This document shows, in pieces, positions 16,670-28,169 of a DNA stretch of 64,000 nucleotides. The position numbers and the translations under genes were made by a program. Numbering within the stretch: the stretch's first letter is position 1; every line of letters starts with the position of its first letter. The stretch is from Actinomycetota bacterium (lineage in GTDB: Bacteria; Actinomycetota; Actinomycetes; S36-B12; GCA-2699445): the NCBI GenBank assembly GCA_029978705.1, contig JAPOIY010000008.1, positions 1 through 64,000 of the forward strand, in the 5' to 3' direction. A model generated the notes under the pieces. The model made no database searches and was not told the origin of the DNA. It saw only the letters and a program-made list of their open reading frames with translations.

Positions 16670-17527
16670 GTGACCAGCGCGGACCGGGGACGGGATGCTG
16701 CCGTCAACCGGGCGCTGTGGCGGGTCGTCAATGAGCAGTACACCGACGGTCAGGCCGGCCAGCGGTGGTCGGCCCCCGACATCGTGTGGGGCATCTTCGA
16801 CATCCCCGAGGACGAGATCGGGGCGCTCGGCGACGTACGGGGGAAAGACGTCGCCGAACTGGGGTGCGGCACCGCCTACTTCTCCGCCTGGCTGGCCCGG
16901 CGTGGGGCGCGGCCCGTCGCCGTCGACGTCAGCGAGGCGCAGCTGGCCACAGCGCAGCGGTGTCAGGACCGTTTCGAGCTCCGCTTCCCACTCGTGCAGG
17001 CGGACGCGACGGCGCTGCCCCTGGCCCCCGACAGTTGTGACCTCGTCGTCAGCGAGTACGGCGCGAGCCTGTGGTGTGATCCGGACGGCTGGATCGGTGA
17101 GGCTGCGCGGATCCTGCGCCCGGGGGGCCGCTTGGTGTTCCTGACCAACAGCGTGCTGGTGAGCCTGTGCGTCCCGGCCGACGAGGGTCCCGCCGCCGCG
17201 AAGCTGGCCCGCGGGCAGCGCGACGTGGCCCGGATCCACTGGTCCGACGGCGGGGTCGAGTTCCACCCCGGTCACGGCGAGCTCATCGCGACCCTGCGCC
17301 GGCACGGACTCGAAGTGGAGTCGCTACGGGAACTGCACGCGCCGCCCGGTGCGCGCGCCCACTCCTACTACGAGATCGCGGAACCACAGTGGGCCGAGCA
17401 GTGGCCGGTCGAGGACCTGTGGTGCGCCCGCTTGGGCGGGGGCTCAGCGGACGGCGATGTCGAGCACATGCCAGTCGTACATGGAGACCGGGCCGCGCGC
17501 GGCGCAGGTGGCCCGGGCGTCGGGTAG
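16670..17527 (+). CDS. Class I SAM-dependent methyltransferase
   Basis: The protein has 285 residues with the SAM-binding motif VAELGCGTAYFSAWLARRGA near residues 63-82, the acidic strand end VAVDVSEAQL, and the post-I motifs DATALPLAPDSCDLV and ILRPGGRLVFL. These place it in the Methyltransf_11/25 group; the substrate is unknown. The GTG start is supported by a TAGCCT box 6 nt upstream. The last 28 codons overlap the convergent ferredoxin-like gene by 84 nt and look non-globular (Gly/Ala/Arg-rich), so the folded domain probably ends near the EDLWCARL segment. Confidence 0.85.
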   Translation: MTSADRGRDAAVNRALWRVVNEQYTDGQAGQRWSAPDIVWGIFDIPEDEIGALGDVRGKDVAELGCGTAYFSAWLARRGARPVAVDVSEAQLATAQRCQDRFELRFPLVQADATALPLAPDSCDLVVSEYGASLWCDPDGWIGEAARILRPGGRLVFLTNSVLVSLCVPADEGPAAAKLARGQRDVARIHWSDGGVEFHPGHGELIATLRRHGLEVESLRELHAPPGARAHSYYEIAEPQWAEQWPVEDLWCARLGGGSADGDVEHMPVVHGDRAARGAGGPGVG

Positions 17528-18307
17528 CCGACGGCGCTCGACGGACACCACCGCCGCGGCGTCGGGGTCGGCGAGATGGACCACCCAGCGGTCGGTTCCC
17601 ACTGCCTCGGTGCTCACCTCCCGCAGGGCGAAGACCCCCGGGCGCGCCAGCGCGCGTTGTGCCGCCACTCGCGCGGCCTGTACGACCGGGGCATCGGTGC
17701 TGCAGCCCCGCAGCAGCGGCAGGAAGAGGCGGCCAGTGTCACTGGCGGTCACGATTCCGGCGGTGTCGAGGGCGTCGACGTAGCCGTAGGTGGCGCCGGT
17801 GGGGAGCACGACCACGTTCGCGGCAAACCGGTCGCCGCCCAGGTGCGAGCACTCCCAGGTCCGCTCCGGGGCCAGCCGGTGCAGTTCGCCCGCCACCGGA
17901 CGCCCCGCGATGGCGCAGCAGCGGTCGTGCCGGCCGTGCGTGCAGACGAGGAAGAGCGGATCCGTCAGCGGGTCCTCCGCCGTCCAGGCCGCCGCGGCGA
18001 TCTCGGCCAGGTCCCGGTACGGCCGCCACGACACCATGCCACTGGCTGCGTCCACGAACGCGAACCGGCGGTCCGTGGGCTGTCTGCCGTGCCGGCGGAT
18101 GAACAGCGGCCGGGTGCCCTGGGAACGGGCGCGGGCCACGATGGCCTGCCCGGCCTCCGGGCCCAGGGGGCTGTCCTCGAAAGCGCGGCGGGGCCACGGC
18201 CCGGGGGCGGCCACCAACAGCCACGAGCGGGCGGGGGCGGCCGTGCCCACGAGGGAGTCCTGGCGCTGGCGGGCGAGCGCGCCGCAACGCCCAGGGTCAC
18301 CCGGCAA
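17444..18307 (-). CDS. Sucrase/ferredoxin-like (thioredoxin-like Fe-S) protein
   Basis: This 287-residue protein belongs to the Suc_Fer-like family. Visible features are an N-terminal CGALARQRQDSLVGTAAPA segment followed by WLLVAAPGPWP, then CTHGRHDRCCAIAGRP and ECSHLGGDRFAANVV, which are the cysteine/histidine motifs of its thioredoxin-like [2Fe-2S] fold. Function is unknown; an electron carrier role is likely. The start is taken as TTG at 18307, overlapping the end of the upstream oxygenase gene by 11 nt, because conserved family residues begin immediately. A GTG at 18250 would remove the first conserved cysteine. Confidence 0.82.
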   Translation of the reverse strand: MPGDPGRCGALARQRQDSLVGTAAPARSWLLVAAPGPWPRRAFEDSPLGPEAGQAIVARARSQGTRPLFIRRHGRQPTDRRFAFVDAASGMVSWRPYRDLAEIAAAAWTAEDPLTDPLFLVCTHGRHDRCCAIAGRPVAGELHRLAPERTWECSHLGGDRFAANVVVLPTGATYGYVDALDTAGIVTASDTGRLFLPLLRGCSTDAPVVQAARVAAQRALARPGVFALREVSTEAVGTDRWVVHLADPDAAAVVSVERRRLPDARATCAARGPVSMYDWHVLDIAVR

Positions 18308-19508
18308 CGGGGATCACGATCGTCTCGCGGAGAGCCCGACGCACGAGGTCACCGGCCTGGACCGGGGTGAGTCCGCGGAGGTCGGCGGGGGCGACCGGGT
18401 CACCCGACAGAAGGGTCTCCAGAGCCGGCCGCCACGACGCGGGTACCTCCAGGCGCCGGCCGCCCGCGACGGCCCCGAACCGGTCGCCGTGAGCGGCGAA
18501 GGAGGCAACCAGCCCGGGGCGCAACCGTACCTGGGTGTCCGCCGCCACCTCGGCGGCCGCCGCCAACTGAGCAAGCGGGGGGACGGGCGCGGCCGGTGCG
18601 TCCCTCTGGAAGCGCTCCGCCAAGTCGGCGGTCACGTCCTGCACGTCGATCTCGGCCAGGGCAGCGAGCGCCTCCTTGCGCAGCAGGTCGACGACCTGCG
18701 CGACGTCCGGCCGACCCATCGGGAGGCTGCGGCGCAGTTCCGGACTACCGCGGGTCAGGGCGCTCTCCAGCAGGCTGCGCAGCGCGTCGGCACCCGTCAC
18801 GGGGTGCACCCCCACCGTGAGGTGGATCGAGGTCTCCCCGCCCGAGACGGCGGAGTGGATCCAGCCGCGCGGGAGGTACAGCGAGTCGCCGGGCCGTAGT
18901 TCCGGGTCCAGCCAGGGATCCCTCCCCGCCTCCGCGGCCACCTCGTTCGCCCATTGCTCCCACGGCTGGCTGGGGAGCGGGTCGGTCACGACGGGGCGGT
19001 GGATCGTCCAGTGCTTCGTACCCGCGATCTGCAGCACGAAGACGTCGTGTGTGTCGAAGTGGCTGGCGAAGCCCTGCGTCCCGGCAGGGGTGATGTAGGC
19101 GTTCACCTGCACCGGGTGGCCCAACTCGTCCGTCAGGGCCCGGGCGAAGCGGCCCAGCGCCGGCCACATCCGGTGCAGTCCCTGCAGGACGAGAGTGGCG
19201 CCATCGGCCAGATGCGTCAGGATCGCGGCGGCATCGGCCTGGTCCGCCACCCGCGCGCCGACTCCGCCCGCACCCGTGAAAGTTGCCGCCGGGAGTACCC
19301 GCCCGTTGGTCGCGAGCCGGAGGAAGGGGGTGCGCAGGCCCCGCTCCGCCACCAGTTCGTCGACGGCCGCTGCGTCGAAGAGGTCGGTGAACCCCACCGT
19401 GTGCGACAGCAGGGGAGCCCGCCCCCAGTGGTCGCTGGCGAACTGCCCCGGAGTGAGGTCGATACATCGCTCCAGCGCGGTGCCAGGCTCAGGCGTCGGC
19501 TCCGCCAT
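18297..19508 (-). CDS. JmjC/cupin-like 2-oxoglutarate oxygenase (ribosomal oxygenase type)
   Basis: The JmjC domain begins with TPGQFASDHWGRAPLL. Iron ligands are His150 and Asp152 in SHFDTHDVFVLQ and distal His218 in PRGWIHSAVS, with TKHW and LRPGDSLYLPRG as expected of the YcfD/NO66-like cupin_4 family, which hydroxylates ribosomal proteins. A C-terminal helical and winged domain follows. The start is uncertain. The frame is open to 19682 through a 12-nt repeat that supplies an ATG in almost every unit; the ATG at 19508 is the last one before the domain and gives 403 residues. The strong ribosome site upstream belongs to a different frame (see 19489-19734), so coupling or frameshifting is possible. 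Confidence 0.82.
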   Translation of the reverse strand: MAEPTPEPGTALERCIDLTPGQFASDHWGRAPLLSHTVGFTDLFDAAAVDELVAERGLRTPFLRLATNGRVLPAATFTGAGGVGARVADQADAAAILTHLADGATLVLQGLHRMWPALGRFARALTDELGHPVQVNAYITPAGTQGFASHFDTHDVFVLQIAGTKHWTIHRPVVTDPLPSQPWEQWANEVAAEAGRDPWLDPELRPGDSLYLPRGWIHSAVSGGETSIHLTVGVHPVTGADALRSLLESALTRGSPELRRSLPMGRPDVAQVVDLLRKEALAALAEIDVQDVTADLAERFQRDAPAAPVPPLAQLAAAAEVAADTQVRLRPGLVASFAAHGDRFGAVAGGRRLEVPASWRPALETLLSGDPVAPADLRGLTPVQAGDLVRRALRETIVIPVAG

Positions 19509-19734
19509 CGGCTCCGCCATCGGCTCCGCCATCGGCTCCGCCATCGGCTCCGCCATCGGCGCCGCCGTCTGCGCCGCCGTCGGCTCCGCCATCGGCTCCG
19601 CCGTCTGCGCCGCCGTCTGCGCCGCCGTCTGCTCCGCCATCGGCTCCGCCGTCCGCGCCGCCGTCTGCTCCGCCATCGGCACCGCCGTCCGCGCCGCCGA
19701 CAGGACCGCCCGTGATGTCGTCTTCGTCCGCCAT
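19489..19734 (-). CDS. Gly-Ala-Asp repeat leader ORF overlapping the JmjC gene
   Basis: An 81-codon frame opens with ATG at 19734 behind a near-perfect ribosome site (GGAGGTGA, 4 nt spacing). It encodes MADEDDITGGPV followed by about 16 copies of GADG and stops at a TGA at 19489-19491. This is one frame away from the JmjC gene, whose candidate starts lie within the repeat. It is either a short acidic peptide translationally coupled to the oxygenase, the true N-terminus joined by frameshifting, or evidence of an indel in this repeat. I cannot tell which. Confidence 0.5.
   Translation of the reverse strand: MADEDDITGGPVGGADGGADGGADGGADGGADGGADGGADGGADGGADGGADGGADGGADGGADGGADGGADGGADGGADA
19491..19695 (-). 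repeat. 12-nt tandem repeat (GCCGATGGCGGA type)
   Basis: About 16 imperfect tandem copies of a 12-nt unit, variants of GGAGCCGATGGC, with third-position changes such as GGCGCAGACGGC. The unit is a multiple of three, so copy-number change alone would not shift frame. Six units at the 3' end are nearly identical, which suggests recent expansion. Confidence 0.85.
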
Positions 19735-19797
19735 CAGTCACCTCCGTGTTGGACGCAGCCTATTGAGCCCAGACCCCTTCGGCCACCGGGCGAGCGG

Positions 19798-21321
19798 TCA
19801 GTGTCCGCCCATCTCGTCCACCAGTTCTCCCTTTCCCGGCAGCATCCACCAGGTGGCGAACGCGCCGACCACCAGGACGGCGGCCCCCGCCAAGGTGGTG
19901 ACGGACAGTGCGTGGGTGAAGGCCTCCCGCACCGTGGCGGCCACCTGCTCGGCCAGAGCCGGAGGGAGCGCGGTGAGGCTCTCGAAGGCCTCCCCGGGAG
20001 ACTCCGCCGCGGACTCGGCCACGTCGTGCGGCACCTGACCCGGCAACGCCAGAGTCCCCTGATAGACCGCGGTCAGCACACTGCCGAGCAACGCGATCCC
20101 CAGGGCGGTGCCCAACTCGTAGCCGGTCTCCGACACCGCCGACGCCGCCCCCGCCCGGTCCCGAGGTGCGACCGCCAGCACGGTGTCGGAGGCGATCGTG
20201 AGAGCTACGCCGTCCCCCGCTCCGATGAGGACGAGGGGAAGGAAGAAGAGCGCGAAGCTGGGGGTGTCGAGCAGCAGAGCCACGGCAGCCATCCCCGCGC
20301 CGATCGCCAGCAGCCCGGTGGCGGTCACCGGTCCTCTGCCGAACCGGCGCATCACCTTGCCCGCTCCCAGGGCCGCCAGCAGGGCGGCCAGGGTCGCCGG
20401 CAACTCGAACAAGCCGGCGGCCAGGGGCTCCAATTGCAGGACGAACTGCAGGTACTGGGAGAAGAAGAACAGAGCGCCCGCCAGGCCGAAGACCGACAGC
20501 ATCATGCCGAGGACAGCACCGGAGAAGGACCAGCTCGCGAACAACCGCACGTCCACCAGGGGATGCTCGAGGTGCCGTTGCCGCTGCACGAACCACACGA
20601 GAGCGACGGTCCCCACGATCCCGGTGATCACGAAGGTGGGCTCGATCCCGTGGACCGCGGACTCCTTGACGAAGTAGACGACGCCGAGGATGCCAATCAT
20701 GGACAGGGCGACGGAGAGGATGTCCAACGGTCCCGGGTTGGGGTCCCACGACTCCCGCAGGGTGGGCAGACCGATGATCAGGACCAGTGCCATGATCGGC
20801 ACGTTGACCAGGAAGACGGAACCCCACCAGTAGTGCTGCAGGAGCAGGCCGCCGAACAACGGACCCGCCGCGGCGCCCGCGGCACCCATCGCGCTCCAGA
20901 CACCGATCGCGAAACTTCGCTCCTTCTCGTCCAGGAACGTCGAGCGCATGAGGGCGAGCGTCGACGGCATCAGTGTCGCGCCGGCCACCCCCAGCAGTGC
21001 CCGCATGAGGATGAGCATCTCGGCGCTCTGGGAGTAGGCGGCGCCGATGGAGAGCAGGGCGAACGCGGTTCCACCCACCAGGAGCATGAGTTTGCGTCCC
21101 CAGCGGTCGCCGAGATTCCCCATGGTGATGAGCAGGCCCGCCAGCACGAACGAATAGATATCGCCGATCCACAGGACCTGCGTCGCCGTGGGCTGCAGGT
21201 CGCGCACGATGCTGGGGGTGGCCAGGCTGAGGACCGTTCCGTCCACCGCCACCAGGAAGATCGCCAGGCTCATGGCGACCAAAGCCCACCAGCGCTTGGG
21301 GTCACGACGCGTGGTCGTCAC
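19798..21321 (-). CDS. MFS drug exporter, DHA2 family (14 TM, EmrB/QacA-like)
   Basis: This 507-residue protein has about 14 hydrophobic helices. TM1 carries FLVAVDGTVLSLATPSI, the loop motif A is GNLGDRWGRKLML, and motif C-like Gly/Pro-rich helix sequence GAAGAAAGPLFGGLLLQH follows, all features of the DHA2 drug:H+ antiporter family. The GTG start at 21321 has a GGGAGGCGCC site; an ATG 20 codons earlier lacks both a ribosome site and conserved sequence. The likely role is efflux of lipophilic or cationic compounds. No dedicated regulator lies next to it. Confidence 0.88.
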   Translation of the reverse strand: MTTTRRDPKRWWALVAMSLAIFLVAVDGTVLSLATPSIVRDLQPTATQVLWIGDIYSFVLAGLLITMGNLGDRWGRKLMLLVGGTAFALLSIGAAYSQSAEMLILMRALLGVAGATLMPSTLALMRSTFLDEKERSFAIGVWSAMGAAGAAAGPLFGGLLLQHYWWGSVFLVNVPIMALVLIIGLPTLRESWDPNPGPLDILSVALSMIGILGVVYFVKESAVHGIEPTFVITGIVGTVALVWFVQRQRHLEHPLVDVRLFASWSFSGAVLGMMLSVFGLAGALFFFSQYLQFVLQLEPLAAGLFELPATLAALLAALGAGKVMRRFGRGPVTATGLLAIGAGMAAVALLLDTPSFALFFLPLVLIGAGDGVALTIASDTVLAVAPRDRAGAASAVSETGYELGTALGIALLGSVLTAVYQGTLALPGQVPHDVAESAAESPGEAFESLTALPPALAEQVAATVREAFTHALSVTTLAGAAVLVVGAFATWWMLPGKGELVDEMGGH

Positions 21322-21388
21322 GGCGCCTCCCTCGACTGGTCCCGCGGGGGGATCGTTCCAGTCGGGGCCGACGGGAGGCAATCGGGCG

Positions 21389-23628: not shown

Positions 23629-26600
23629 TCATTCTCGCGGGGCGCCGCCGGGGAGGATGTCCGAGCCGCTGACCACCGTGGCGCTGTCCTCGGCAGCCGG
23701 CTGCTCACCCGCGGCCGCGGCGGCGTCCTCCGCCTCCCATTTGGCCTCCAGTTGCCGCCCTTCCAGGTCGAGGTTGGGCAGGATGCGGTCGAGCCAGTGC
23801 GGCAGTGCCCACGTCCAGCGGCCGAAGATGGTCAGGGCGGCTGGGGTCCAGGTCAGCACCAGCGTGGCCGCGAGGGCGACGGCGACGGTGAGTCCCACCC
23901 CGAACTGCTTGATCACCGAGTCGTCGTTGAGGACGAAACTGCCGAAGACGCTCATCATGATCAGGGCAGCGGTCACGACGACCCGGCCCGCGTTCATGAC
24001 ACCGTCCTTGACCGCCTGGCGGGGGTCGATGCCCGCGACGGCCTCGTTCTGGATCGTGCTGATCACGAAGACCTGGTAGTCCATCGACAGGCCGAACAGC
24101 GCGGCGAACATCATGAGGGGCACGTAGCTGACCACCGGCACGGAGCCCGACGACGTCTCCAGGCCGATCCAGTCAAGGCCCCAGCCCCACTGGAAGACGA
24201 CGGTGACCACGCCGAAGGAGGCTGCGGCCGCGACGGTGTTGGCGATGGCTGCCTGAAGCGGGACCAGCAGGGACCGGAAGGCGATCAACAGCAGCAGGGA
24301 ACTGAGCAGGACCACCGTCGCGATGACCAGTGCCAGCTTCTCGGTGATCAGGGTGGCCAGGTCGACGTTGGAGGCCGTACTGCCGCCGACGTAGACATCC
24401 TCCCCCGGCACTGTGGCGGGGGGGATGGTCTTGTCCCGCAGTTGCTGCACGAGGTCGGCGGTCTTGGGGTTCGCGGGCTGGGTCTTGGCGATCACGCTCA
24501 GGATGACGGCCGTGCCGGCCTTGTTGATGTCCGGCGGCACCACGGTGTCCACCTCGGAGGGTTTGGCCAGCGCATCCTGCATCTGCACGATGCGCGGGTC
24601 GGTGCCGCGGGCGTCGCCGCCGGCCTTGGTGAGTTCCTTCGTCAGTTCATTCTGCAGCTGCTTGGCCTGCTTCTCCTGCTTCTTGGCCTCGTTGGACTGC
24701 TGCTGCAGCTCGTTGCCCCACTCCTGCAGTGAGGCCGACTCCGCCTCCAACGCCGCCTGCTGCTGCTCCAACTCCGTGGCCTGGGCGGAAAGGGCCTCAC
24801 CTTCCTGCGCCAGAGCCTCACCCTGCTGCGCCAAGGCCTGAGCTTCCTTGGCGAGCGCCTGCGCCTGCTCGTCCAGTTTCTTCCCCTGCTCCTTCAAGGA
24901 CTGGAGCTTCTCGGTGTTGCGTTTCAGTTCCTTGCGGAGGGTGCGCCGCTCCTTCTTGCGCTTGTCCAGCCTCTTCTCCAACTCCGCCCGCACGAGGGGG
25001 TTACGGGCGTGGGAGATCCGCCGTTTGAGCACACGCTGGGCGATCCGGTTCCGGGCCAGGTCCCGGGCGATCCGGGCCTCGGTGAGCACGGCCTGCTCGA
25101 CCTCGGCGCCGAGTTTCTGCGCCTCCTCCTGGAGCCGGGCGCCCTCTGCCTTGAGCTGCGCCTCCTGCTGCTGCAGGTCCGCCGCCTCGGCCTCGAGACT
25201 GGCCTGTTCGGCCTGCAGGGAGTCGCCCTCGGCCTGTAACTCGTCGGCGGACGCCTCCAGGGCATCCTGCTGCTGCTCGAGTTCCGCCTGCTGCTGGGTG
25301 AGGCTCTGCTGTTCGGCGGTCAGCTGGTTCTGCAGGCTCGTGGCCTCGTTGTACTGGTTCTCGTACTTCTGGGACGGCTTGGCCTTCGGGTCGAGCGACA
25401 TGGCGACGACGAGCGGGCCGTTGTACCCCGGTCCGAACCCCTGGGAGACCAGGTCGAAGGCCTGCCGCTGCGACGTGCTCTTGGGGGATACGGCGTCGTC
25501 CTGCTGACCGAGCACCATCGACTGGACCGGGAGGACGAGGGGGATGAGCAACCCCATCGCCAGGACCGCCACGGTGTAGCGGTGGCCGGTGATGAGGGCA
25601 GCCCAGCGGCGCGCGATGGGGTGGGTCGTGGTGCGCCCCAGGAAGGGCACGCGCACCCGGGTCACCCACGAGCCGACGATCGCCAAGAGAGCCGGTAGGA
25701 AGGTGATGGCCGAGATGACGGCGAAGGCGACAGCGCCGGCGCACGCGTACCCGAGGCCGGCGATGAAGGGGATGCCGGCCACCTGCAGGGACAGCAGGGC
25801 GAGCACCACGGTGCTGCCGGCGAAGATGATCGCCCCGCCGGCAGTAGCCGTCGCGGCAACGGCGGCACGGTGCGGCTCGTACCCCTTCTCGGTGATGAAC
25901 CGGCGGTGGCGGTAGACCATGAAGAGCGCGTAGTCGATACCGACGCCGAGGCCGATCATGCGCGCCAGCGTGGTGCCGATGGTGGGGATCTCGAGGAAGA
26001 CGCCGAGGAACCAGATGCTGGCGATCCCCACGAGCAGACCGATGACCGCCGAGATCAACGGCAGGCCCATCGCGACCAGGCTGGCGAAGGAGATGGCCAG
26101 GATGAAGGCGGCCGCGAGCATGCCGAGCCGCTCACTGGGCCCGGTGTCCACCACGAAGAGGGTGTTGCCGATAGGCCCGCCGACGGCCGACTTGATGCCC
26201 TGCTTCTCCGGGTCGGTGACCGCCAGGTTGTAGTAGTCCTTGGCTTCTTTGACGGTCAGTTTGTTGTTGGGGGTCTTCAGCAGGATCGGCATCATCGCGT
26301 AGGTGCCGTCCTTGCTCACCAGGCCGGCCTGGGGCTGCTTGAACGGGTTGGTGACGCTCGACACCTCGGGCTGCGCCTTGATGGCTTTGTAGGCGTTGGT
26401 GATCGCCTGCTGATTGGGGCCCTTGTCGTTCAGTTTCCCGCTGGTCACGTGGTAGACGGCGGGACTGCTGCCGTTCTGCTGGGGTGGGAACTCCGCCGTG
26501 AGCAGGTCGGTGGCCTCCTGGCTGCCGGTACCGGGCAGCGCCACGTCGTTGGTGGTCGTCGGGTTGGCGTTCGTGGTGAAGGCCGTCAACCCGATAGCCA

Positions 26601-26676
26601 GAATCAACCAGACCACGACGACGGACCAGCGGAAACGGACACAGAAATGGCCGACGTGGCTCAGTGCCCGGCCCAT
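23629..26676 (-). CDS. MmpL-family RND transporter with long coiled-coil insertion
   Basis: This 1015-residue protein has two MMPL halves. The first is TM1 (VVVVWLILAIGLTAF), an extracytoplasmic loop, then TM2-6 with GLGVGIDYALFMVYRHRRF. The second is TM8-12 with FGLSMDYQVFVIS near residue 870. The GxxxDY motifs carry the proton-relay aspartates of RND pumps. Between TM7 and TM8, at about residues 440-685, lies a very long heptad-rich stretch (LQNQLTAEQQ, LEQQQDALEA, QALAKEAQAL) with a basic middle part, predicting a coiled-coil hairpin. MmpL4/5-type pumps have a comparable periplasmic hairpin. The cargo is probably a lipid or siderophore-like molecule. The start has a GGGAGCG site. Confidence 0.88.
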   Translation of the reverse strand: MGRALSHVGHFCVRFRWSVVVVWLILAIGLTAFTTNANPTTTNDVALPGTGSQEATDLLTAEFPPQQNGSSPAVYHVTSGKLNDKGPNQQAITNAYKAIKAQPEVSSVTNPFKQPQAGLVSKDGTYAMMPILLKTPNNKLTVKEAKDYYNLAVTDPEKQGIKSAVGGPIGNTLFVVDTGPSERLGMLAAAFILAISFASLVAMGLPLISAVIGLLVGIASIWFLGVFLEIPTIGTTLARMIGLGVGIDYALFMVYRHRRFITEKGYEPHRAAVAATATAGGAIIFAGSTVVLALLSLQVAGIPFIAGLGYACAGAVAFAVISAITFLPALLAIVGSWVTRVRVPFLGRTTTHPIARRWAALITGHRYTVAVLAMGLLIPLVLPVQSMVLGQQDDAVSPKSTSQRQAFDLVSQGFGPGYNGPLVVAMSLDPKAKPSQKYENQYNEATSLQNQLTAEQQSLTQQQAELEQQQDALEASADELQAEGDSLQAEQASLEAEAADLQQQEAQLKAEGARLQEEAQKLGAEVEQAVLTEARIARDLARNRIAQRVLKRRISHARNPLVRAELEKRLDKRKKERRTLRKELKRNTEKLQSLKEQGKKLDEQAQALAKEAQALAQQGEALAQEGEALSAQATELEQQQAALEAESASLQEWGNELQQQSNEAKKQEKQAKQLQNELTKELTKAGGDARGTDPRIVQMQDALAKPSEVDTVVPPDINKAGTAVILSVIAKTQPANPKTADLVQQLRDKTIPPATVPGEDVYVGGSTASNVDLATLITEKLALVIATVVLLSSLLLLIAFRSLLVPLQAAIANTVAAAASFGVVTVVFQWGWGLDWIGLETSSGSVPVVSYVPLMMFAALFGLSMDYQVFVISTIQNEAVAGIDPRQAVKDGVMNAGRVVVTAALIMMSVFGSFVLNDDSVIKQFGVGLTVAVALAATLVLTWTPAALTIFGRWTWALPHWLDRILPNLDLEGRQLEAKWEAEDAAAAAGEQPAAEDSATVVSGSDILPGGAPRE

Positions 26677-26852: not shown

Positions 26853-28169
26853 GTGGCGGTATCGCAAGGCGACCACCGGGGAGGCCCCCTCTCCTGGTTG
26901 ACCAACCGGACGTTGGATTCCGTGGATGTCGACGGCCTTCTCGCCGGGGTCGACCTCGACGCCCTGATCCAACGGGTCGACGTGGACGAGCTCGTCGACC
27001 GCGTCGACATCCAGGCCGTGGTGGACCGCATCGACCCGCAAGTCCTCGTGGACCGCATCGACGCCCAAGGGCTCGTGGACCGCATCGATGCCCAGGGACT
27101 GGTCGAGCGAGTGGATCCCGACCCGTTGCTCGACCGGGTCGATCCCAACCGGCTGTTGGACCGGGTGGAACCCGACCGGCTGTTGGACCGGGTGGACCCC
27201 AATCTGCTGTTGGACCGGGTGGACCCCGACCGGCTGTTGGACCGCGTCGATCCCAACCGGCTGTTGGACCGGGTGGACCCCAACCGGCTGTTGGACCGGG
27301 TGGACCCCGACCGGCTGTTGGACCGCGTCGATCCCAACCGGCTGTTGGACCGGGTGGACCCCGACCGGCTGTTGGACCGGGTGGACGCCGACCGCTTCAT
27401 GGACCAGGTGGATGTCGATCGGATCATGGCGCGGGTCGACGTGAACGCCCTGGTGGAACGGGCCGGCGTCGCCGACATCGTGGCCGACTCCACCGGTGCC
27501 GTCGCCGGCTCCGTTCTGGACACGGTGCGTCGCCAGGTCGTCGCCCTCGACACCATCGTCGAGCGCACCACGTACCGCCTCACGGGCCGCAACCCGGCGC
27601 GCCGCCCGACCGCACCGCCCCTGCTGGCGACCACCGCCGGCCAGGTCGCGGACGGCCGCAGTCAGGTCACCGGGACGTACGCCGGACCTCTGTCCCGGCT
27701 GCTGGCCTTCATCATCGACGTGCTCGTGGCCTTCTGGAGTTTCACCCTGGTCGCCGCCGGCACGACGTGGGTGCTGCAGAACGTGGGCCTCGCGGTTCCG
27801 GAGGACCAGCAGTGGACCATCCTCGGGTTCGCCCTGTTCCTCAGCTGGTGTTTCCTGTACTGGGTCGTCGCCCTCGTCCTCACCGGCCGCACCATCGGCA
27901 AGGGTGTGCTCGGGCTGAAGGTTCTCAGCGCCGACGGCAGCCCCTTGGTCGGCTGGCGCGCCGTCGTCCGCACGCTGGTCGAGCCCGTGTCCGTCGCCTC
28001 CGCGGTGGGTGTGCTGGCAGCCCTGTTCACCCAGCGGCGGACCACGCTGCACGACTGGGTGGGACGCACATGCGAGGTCTACGACTGGGGCGACCGCCCT
28101 GCGGAACTGCCCGCCCCCCTGACGGCCTGGATCAACAACCATGCCGCGCCCGGCGACGAGGTGGTCTGA
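26853..28169 (+). CDS. RDD-family membrane protein with nonapeptide repeat domain
   Basis: This 438-residue protein has two parts. Residues 26-205 contain about 20 tandem nonapeptides of the form [PA]-[DN]-x-L-[LV]-D-R-[VI]-D, ten of them almost identical. After a linker, residues 275-410 form an RDD domain: an N-terminal PLSRLLAFIIDVLVAFW with the Arg and Asp that name the family, TGRTIGKGVLGLKVL, and RRTTLHDWVGRT. RDD proteins are small membrane proteins of mostly unknown role; some act in transport. The repeats are probably cytoplasmic and may make a helical or solenoid scaffold. The GTG start is supported by TAGTCT 6 nt upstream. Confidence 0.85.
   Translation: MAVSQGDHRGGPLSWLTNRTLDSVDVDGLLAGVDLDALIQRVDVDELVDRVDIQAVVDRIDPQVLVDRIDAQGLVDRIDAQGLVERVDPDPLLDRVDPNRLLDRVEPDRLLDRVDPNLLLDRVDPDRLLDRVDPNRLLDRVDPNRLLDRVDPDRLLDRVDPNRLLDRVDPDRLLDRVDADRFMDQVDVDRIMARVDVNALVERAGVADIVADSTGAVAGSVLDTVRRQVVALDTIVERTTYRLTGRNPARRPTAPPLLATTAGQVADGRSQVTGTYAGPLSRLLAFIIDVLVAFWSFTLVAAGTTWVLQNVGLAVPEDQQWTILGFALFLSWCFLYWVVALVLTGRTIGKGVLGLKVLSADGSPLVGWRAVVRTLVEPVSVASAVGVLAALFTQRRTTLHDWVGRTCEVYDWGDRPAELPAPLTAWINNHAAPGDEVV
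27117..27386 (+). repeat. 27-nt coding tandem repeat array (10 near-identical units)
   Basis: Ten 27-nt units encode PDPLLDRVD-type nonapeptides. Sub-blocks of two to three units are nearly identical at DNA level, including synonymous positions (alternating GGGTGGAC and GCGTCGAT), which indicates recent duplication. Diverged units extend the protein repeat from about 26928 to 27467. Confidence 0.9.

Follow-up and report, generated by a model that had tools for sequence, protein, structure and literature searches.

How is a JmjC oxygenase gene expressed when the strong ribosome-binding site ahead of it opens another reading frame, and what is the Gly-Ala-Asp repeat that this other frame encodes? 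The question arises from a stretch of 64,000 nucleotides of an Actinomycetota bacterium (contig JAPOIY010000008.1, the whole stretch hereafter being called the window), in which the initial annotation had singled out the region 18297-19734 for its JmjC oxygenase. The features concerned all lie on the minus strand:

19738..19745, minus strand: Shine-Dalgarno (SD) sequence GGAGGTGA of the peptide gene, read from the sequence upstream of ATG 19734
19489..19734, minus strand: precursor-like peptide gene, 81 aa, MADEDDITGGPV(GGAD)17A, stop codon TGA at 19491..19489
19495..19698, minus strand: 17 tandem 12-bp units encoding GGAD, with all variation synonymous in the GAD frame
18297..19508, minus strand: JmjC_2 (PF08007) oxygenase, 403 aa, likeliest start ATG 19508 in the last repeats
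17444..18307, minus strand: Suc_Fer-like (PF06999) thioredoxin-like ferredoxin homologue, start TTG 18307

The peptide, JmjC and Suc_Fer-like genes overlap one another head to tail: the first two share 20 nt (with ATG 19508 as the start), and the third, from its TTG start, shares 11 nt with the end of JmjC. Much of this layout had been recognized in the initial annotation, namely the strong ribosome site before ATG 19734 (GGAGGTGA at 19745..19738), the extension of the repeat ORF to TGA 19489, and the position of the JmjC gene in another frame with its candidate ATGs inside the repeat. Its count of about 16 GADG repeats has to be replaced by 17 GGAD units, and while the end of the JmjC gene at 18297 stands, the usable ORF is 19508..18297 (403 aa). 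The JmjC_2 frame, which differs from that of the peptide, is open from 19682 to 18297 through the whole repeat. All in-frame ATGs upstream of the domain are located inside the repeat; the last of them is 19508, from which the product begins MAEPTPEPGTALERC. The tandem array comprises 17.8 copies of 12 bp with 87% matches, a copy number that is uncertain and possibly misassembled, because short reads may not span an array of about 204 bp and the genome is a 2.9-Mb draft of 156 contigs.

Judged by the distribution of its variant bases, the repeat is under selection as a Gly-Ala-Asp peptide. Within the 17 GGAD units of the window's array, which are not independent of one another, every one of the 22 bases that deviate from the majority unit is synonymous in the GAD frame; in the remaining frames this holds for none and five of them. 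Among orthologues from seven Cellulomonas species, which are themselves related, 387 of 485 pairwise differences fall on third positions of the peptide frame, and 381 differences are synonymous in that frame versus 29 and 59 in the others; both comparisons agree in direction. On the synonymous variation in the array and the third-position bias in Cellulomonas, a chance repeat ORF was rejected. The window repeat is composed solely of G, A and D, and D, G and A are also the only residues common to all 58 peptide cores of the family, His, Thr, Ser, Asn and others being missing in many; no His or Arg is conserved in the family peptides. These peptides are 52–162 aa long with a varying number of repeats. 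The window peptide has a short acidic leader (DEDDI) preceding the Asp-rich tandem repeat and ends with the family's usual Ala followed by the stop codon. The leader motif is loose, its strict pattern being matched by 39 of the 58 family peptides. Pfam, NCBIfam and PADLOC contain no model for the peptide or for the specific enzyme subfamily.

Relatives of the locus were collected by searching genome contigs at the protein level (16 loci) and by a phylum-wide search of 397 genomes, 58 of which had a JmjC match at E ≤ 1e-20. In the window's clade, 42 of the 45 JmjC genes are immediately preceded by a DGGA-repeat ORF that ends in a stop codon of its own, as in the Cellulomonas peptide MSINDDDITSEPAPAGEGVADGGANPGGHDGGADGSA. 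The three loci of this clade without a DGGA ORF (L015, L018, L030) also lack Suc_Fer, and five of the 42 loci with the ORF do so too. Suc_Fer is thus present at 37 of 42 loci with the DGGA ORF versus none of three without (p 0.004), and none of eight distant JmjC paralogues (scores 143-182) has an Asp-rich ORF or Suc_Fer (Fisher p 5e-9); these p-values are indicative only, since the sampled loci are mutually related and independence is overstated. All 12 of the further, weaker JmjC matches (scores 251-290) are accompanied by both an Asp-rich ORF of a type other than DGGA and Suc_Fer. In the sister JmjC clade, another Asp-rich repeat ORF (DADGTDGDA...) occupies the same position at 16 of 16 loci, DGGA is absent, and Suc_Fer follows JmjC at 14 of the 16; the hosts belong to Actinomycetota classes other than that of the window, with one exception (L047). 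These peptides, exemplified by MDEESTTRVVDEDIETVWTGGTGTVATVADPQDADGTDADDAQDADGTDGDAADGTDGDA, often have an acidic leader similar to that of the window's clade. This second peptide type, with its Asp-rich DADG/TDGD repeats and in many cases an acidic, EDIxT-like leader, was recorded in place of DGGA upstream of JmjC in more distant Actinomycetota, at loci L032-L048 and L126-L138. In a tree of 61 JmjC proteins, the two peptide types split at a branch with an SH-aLRT of 100. The linkage also holds when the repeat is taken as the starting point: 16 of 16 genomes chosen solely by clustered or numerous DGGADG(G) DNA matches encode this JmjC, against a base rate of 58 in 397 genomes, and in 15 of them the repeat adjoins JmjC, the remaining one being cut by a contig end. 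From these comparisons, the repeat ORF is a small, conserved gene of its own in front of the oxygenase, widespread in actinobacteria, which the initial annotation overlooked and which likely encodes the substrate of the oxygenase.

The cassette is patchily distributed: apart from the genome of the window itself, one of the 98 relatives sampled has it. One contig binned as Rhodospirillales (Alphaproteobacteria; L017, CAJCIN010000009.1) bears the same three genes, by horizontal transfer or through mis-binning. No protease or exporter is common to the loci, and the 29 neighbourhoods sampled share no further gene beyond local synteny. The MFS transporter (19798..21381) was rejected as a cassette member, as its adjacency is not kept in the neighbourhoods of relatives, and so was the methyltransferase at 16670..17527 (plus strand), which lies on the other strand and is unshared. 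A role in anti-phage defence was discarded for want of a PADLOC model match, and an occurrence of the JmjC gene on plasmids was likewise rejected, the top matches listed being paralogues of 28-36% identity. Elsewhere in the window, an RDD-family membrane protein (26853-28169, plus strand) begins with a series of 9-aa repeats (VDPNRLLDR), which correspond to a 27-bp tandem repeat in the DNA, and an MMPL-family transporter (23629-26676, minus strand) has a long, coiled-coil-like insert rich in Gln, Ala and Glu at about residues 440-700.

How the JmjC gene is started can be approached from the junctions of the 58 loci. At 48 of the 50 loci that have a start codon there, the JmjC start nearest to the peptide stop lies at -20 to +32, typically in TAGTG, TGATG or GTGA overlaps, and in most relatives JmjC begins at or after the peptide stop codon. 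The SD sequence of the JmjC start has three bases or fewer at 40 of 50 loci, whereas that of the peptide start has at least four at 57 of 58, a figure biased upward as peptide starts were picked partly by their SD. Because the ORFs abut or overlap, the JmjC SD sequences are weak and those of the peptide strong, we infer that JmjC is expressed by stop-start termination-reinitiation coupled to the peptide ORF, a pattern that also speaks against a programmed frameshift; translational coupling, one of the explanations offered initially, is therefore retained. About ten loci (L044, L098, L100, L101, L104-L107, L140, L143) lack any ATG, GTG or TTG in the interval from the stop of the peptide to the conserved N-terminus of JmjC. 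CTG, often as CTGA, is the sole start candidate there, and CTG initiation, readthrough or recoding are possible.

The other explanations put forward in the initial annotation fare less well. Programmed or repeat-induced frameshifting, which would fuse the GAD repeat and JmjC into one polypeptide, gains something from the JmjC frame being open across the entire repeat in the window and from the roughly ten relatives that lack a standard start codon at the junction. It is nevertheless very improbable, given that the frame offset from peptide to JmjC is 0 at 19 loci, +1 at 13 and +2 at 26, that it is not even constant within one genus (two species, L141 and L142), and that the loci with offset 0 are split by a stop codon. 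A canonical start is found at the junction in most loci, the reading of the repeat in the JmjC frame is unconserved, and the proposed comparison of orthologues for a single fused GAD-JmjC frame yielded none, the repeat ORF being separate in 42 of 45. A sequencing or assembly indel that broke an originally single frame might be suspected in a draft of 156 contigs with an array possibly longer than short reads, but its probability is close to nil: two separate ORFs occur in all repeat-bearing relatives, including the single-contig genomes G303, G324 and G313, and the window peptide terminates in the usual family Ala and stop. With all three offsets represented, and disagreement even among sister species, neither fusion, indel nor programmed frameshift is the explanation. 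A conserved expression switch built from start codons in the repeat is likewise unsupported, the off-frame ATGs being a by-product of GAT-GGC codons and most relatives starting JmjC at or after the peptide stop.

The enzyme is predicted to be a JmjC/ROX-type Fe(II)/2-oxoglutarate oxygenase with a C-terminal winged-helix (RRE-like) domain. It matches JmjC_2 (PF08007) with 92.9 bits against a Pfam cut-off of 22 (E 1.5e-26), and the Fe(II) triad HxD...H (H143, D145, H211 in P0001 numbering) together with K158 is invariant in 61 sequences. Its predicted structure (pLDDT 94.5) resembles NO66 best (E 9e-28), followed by MINA and YcfD, and ends in a winged helix made of strands at 320-349 and helices at 350-387. 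Fusions of PF08007 to RRE-like domains and bacterial homologues in RiPP-like contexts have been described (PMC12710340). The Suc_Fer-like partner has the motif C-X8-C...H-X3-D, in which C122-X8-C131 and H155 are invariant. Over about 100 residues, its model aligns with thioredoxin-like [2Fe-2S] ferredoxins (probability 1.0; TM 0.69, on the target), with an E value of only 0.03. It shares the Suc_Fer domain, the C-X8-C...H-X3 motif and this fold with Apd1/Aim32 (PF06999; PMC8482512), but the fourth position is Asp in 51 of 53 sequences rather than the second His of these bis-His proteins, so that it departs from the pattern C-X8-C-Xn-H-X3-H. A link of Apd1/Aim32-type Suc_Fer proteins to RiPPs is absent from the papers searched.

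Gene structure, coding selection, conserved linkage, clade-matched peptide types, an intact catalytic motif and the predicted fold are directly supported, and on this basis we consider it likely that the three genes form a compact RiPP-like cassette whose oxygenase hydroxylates the repeat peptide made with it, the output of both being coupled. It would consist of a peptide with an acidic leader and Asp-rich repeats, a JmjC/ROX oxygenase and a thioredoxin-like [2Fe-2S] ferredoxin homologue. The peptide would be translated from its own strong ribosome-binding site, after which the ribosome would stop at TGA 19489 and reinitiate at ATG 19508 to produce the oxygenase, so tying enzyme output to substrate output. 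The oxygenase, whose substrate the adjacent peptide probably is, would then hydroxylate the repeats at many positions, most probably at Asp beta-carbons, and the product would be a disordered, metal-binding poly-hydroxy-Asp peptide. The ferredoxin-like partner may maintain the reduced state of the iron site over many turnovers. Asp is the likeliest target because only G, A and D occur in all cores and Asp is the chemically sensible one among them. FIH hydroxylates Asp in ankyrin repeats. Because the 29 neighbourhoods yielded no conserved protease or exporter, the product may remain in the cell or use general machinery, and maturation and export as in classical RiPPs are doubtful. A short precursor peptide gene adjoins a tailoring enzyme in conserved linkage, and the cassette may thus work like a RiPP with a JmjC tailoring enzyme; it is not filed as a proven RiPP, dedicated maturation genes not having been found in it.

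Precedents exist for parts of this scheme. The JmjC enzyme BipG acts on a RiPP (PMC12707348), and BipG/PbsQ of biphenomycin biosynthesis (PMC12707348, PMC12257519) are JmjC/cupin oxygenases in RiPP clusters acting on the precursor. They hydroxylate ornithine after an MNIO and an arginase within a large cluster, whereas the present cassette is devoid of MNIO, rSAM and arginase and has a long, repetitive, acidic precursor. Beta-hydroxylation of Asp in ribosomal peptides is established chemistry (PesHI, PMC13060819), and the oxygenase SmaO of a graspetide cluster is cited for it in PMC13097080; these are other enzymes acting on few sites, while here a JmjC enzyme and many repeats are proposed. 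No paper on the pairing of a repeat peptide with JmjC was found in the open-licence literature, which is weak evidence; the cassette is apparently undescribed.

Two further readings accept separate genes and give the peptide a role other than that of substrate. A translated leader that regulates JmjC, as an attenuator or uORF, would agree with the tight stop-start overlap, the poor JmjC SD and the short upstream ORF. There is only a slight chance of this, however: composition and repeats are strongly conserved at the amino-acid level with a variable repeat number, the repeat type switches in step with the JmjC clade, and 52-162 aa is long for a leader. Alternatively, JmjC could act on a different target, for instance a ribosomal protein, and the peptide could serve to regulate or inhibit it. 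The nearest solved structures, the ribosomal oxygenases NO66, MINA and YcfD, point this way, and NO66, MINA53 and YcfD (PF08007) have the fold, the HxD...H iron site, the 2-oxoglutarate-binding Lys and the C-terminal winged helix in common with the enzyme. The residues hydroxylated by known members are His or Arg in ribosomal proteins, neither of which is conserved in the peptides here, and the pairing with an adjacent Asp-rich repeat peptide distinguishes the present cassette from them. A scenario in which the enzyme hydroxylates ribosomal proteins and the acidic peptide has an accessory role, as inhibitor, chaperone or metal buffer, is unlikely, though somewhat less so than a leader: the peptide type co-varies with the JmjC clade, and the distribution is patchy (one in 98 sampled relatives besides the window's genome), unlike that of a housekeeping ribosome modification.

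What looked like an annotation puzzle thus becomes a defined cassette, with precursor-like peptide genes of extreme simplicity beside a JmjC enzyme that has eukaryotic relatives active on the ribosome. More tentatively, Actinomycetota may possess a hitherto undescribed, phylum-wide group of ribosomal peptides whose Asp-rich repeats are multiply hydroxylated by JmjC with a ferredoxin-like partner and no dedicated protease or exporter, resulting in an intracellular poly-beta-hydroxyaspartate that would be metal-binding or oxygen/iron-responsive. Should the peptide prove to be the substrate, bacterial JmjC hydroxylases would gain a natural substrate to which they are genetically linked, Asp hydroxylation at multiple sites would be a likely new modification, and a role for Suc_Fer proteins would become testable.
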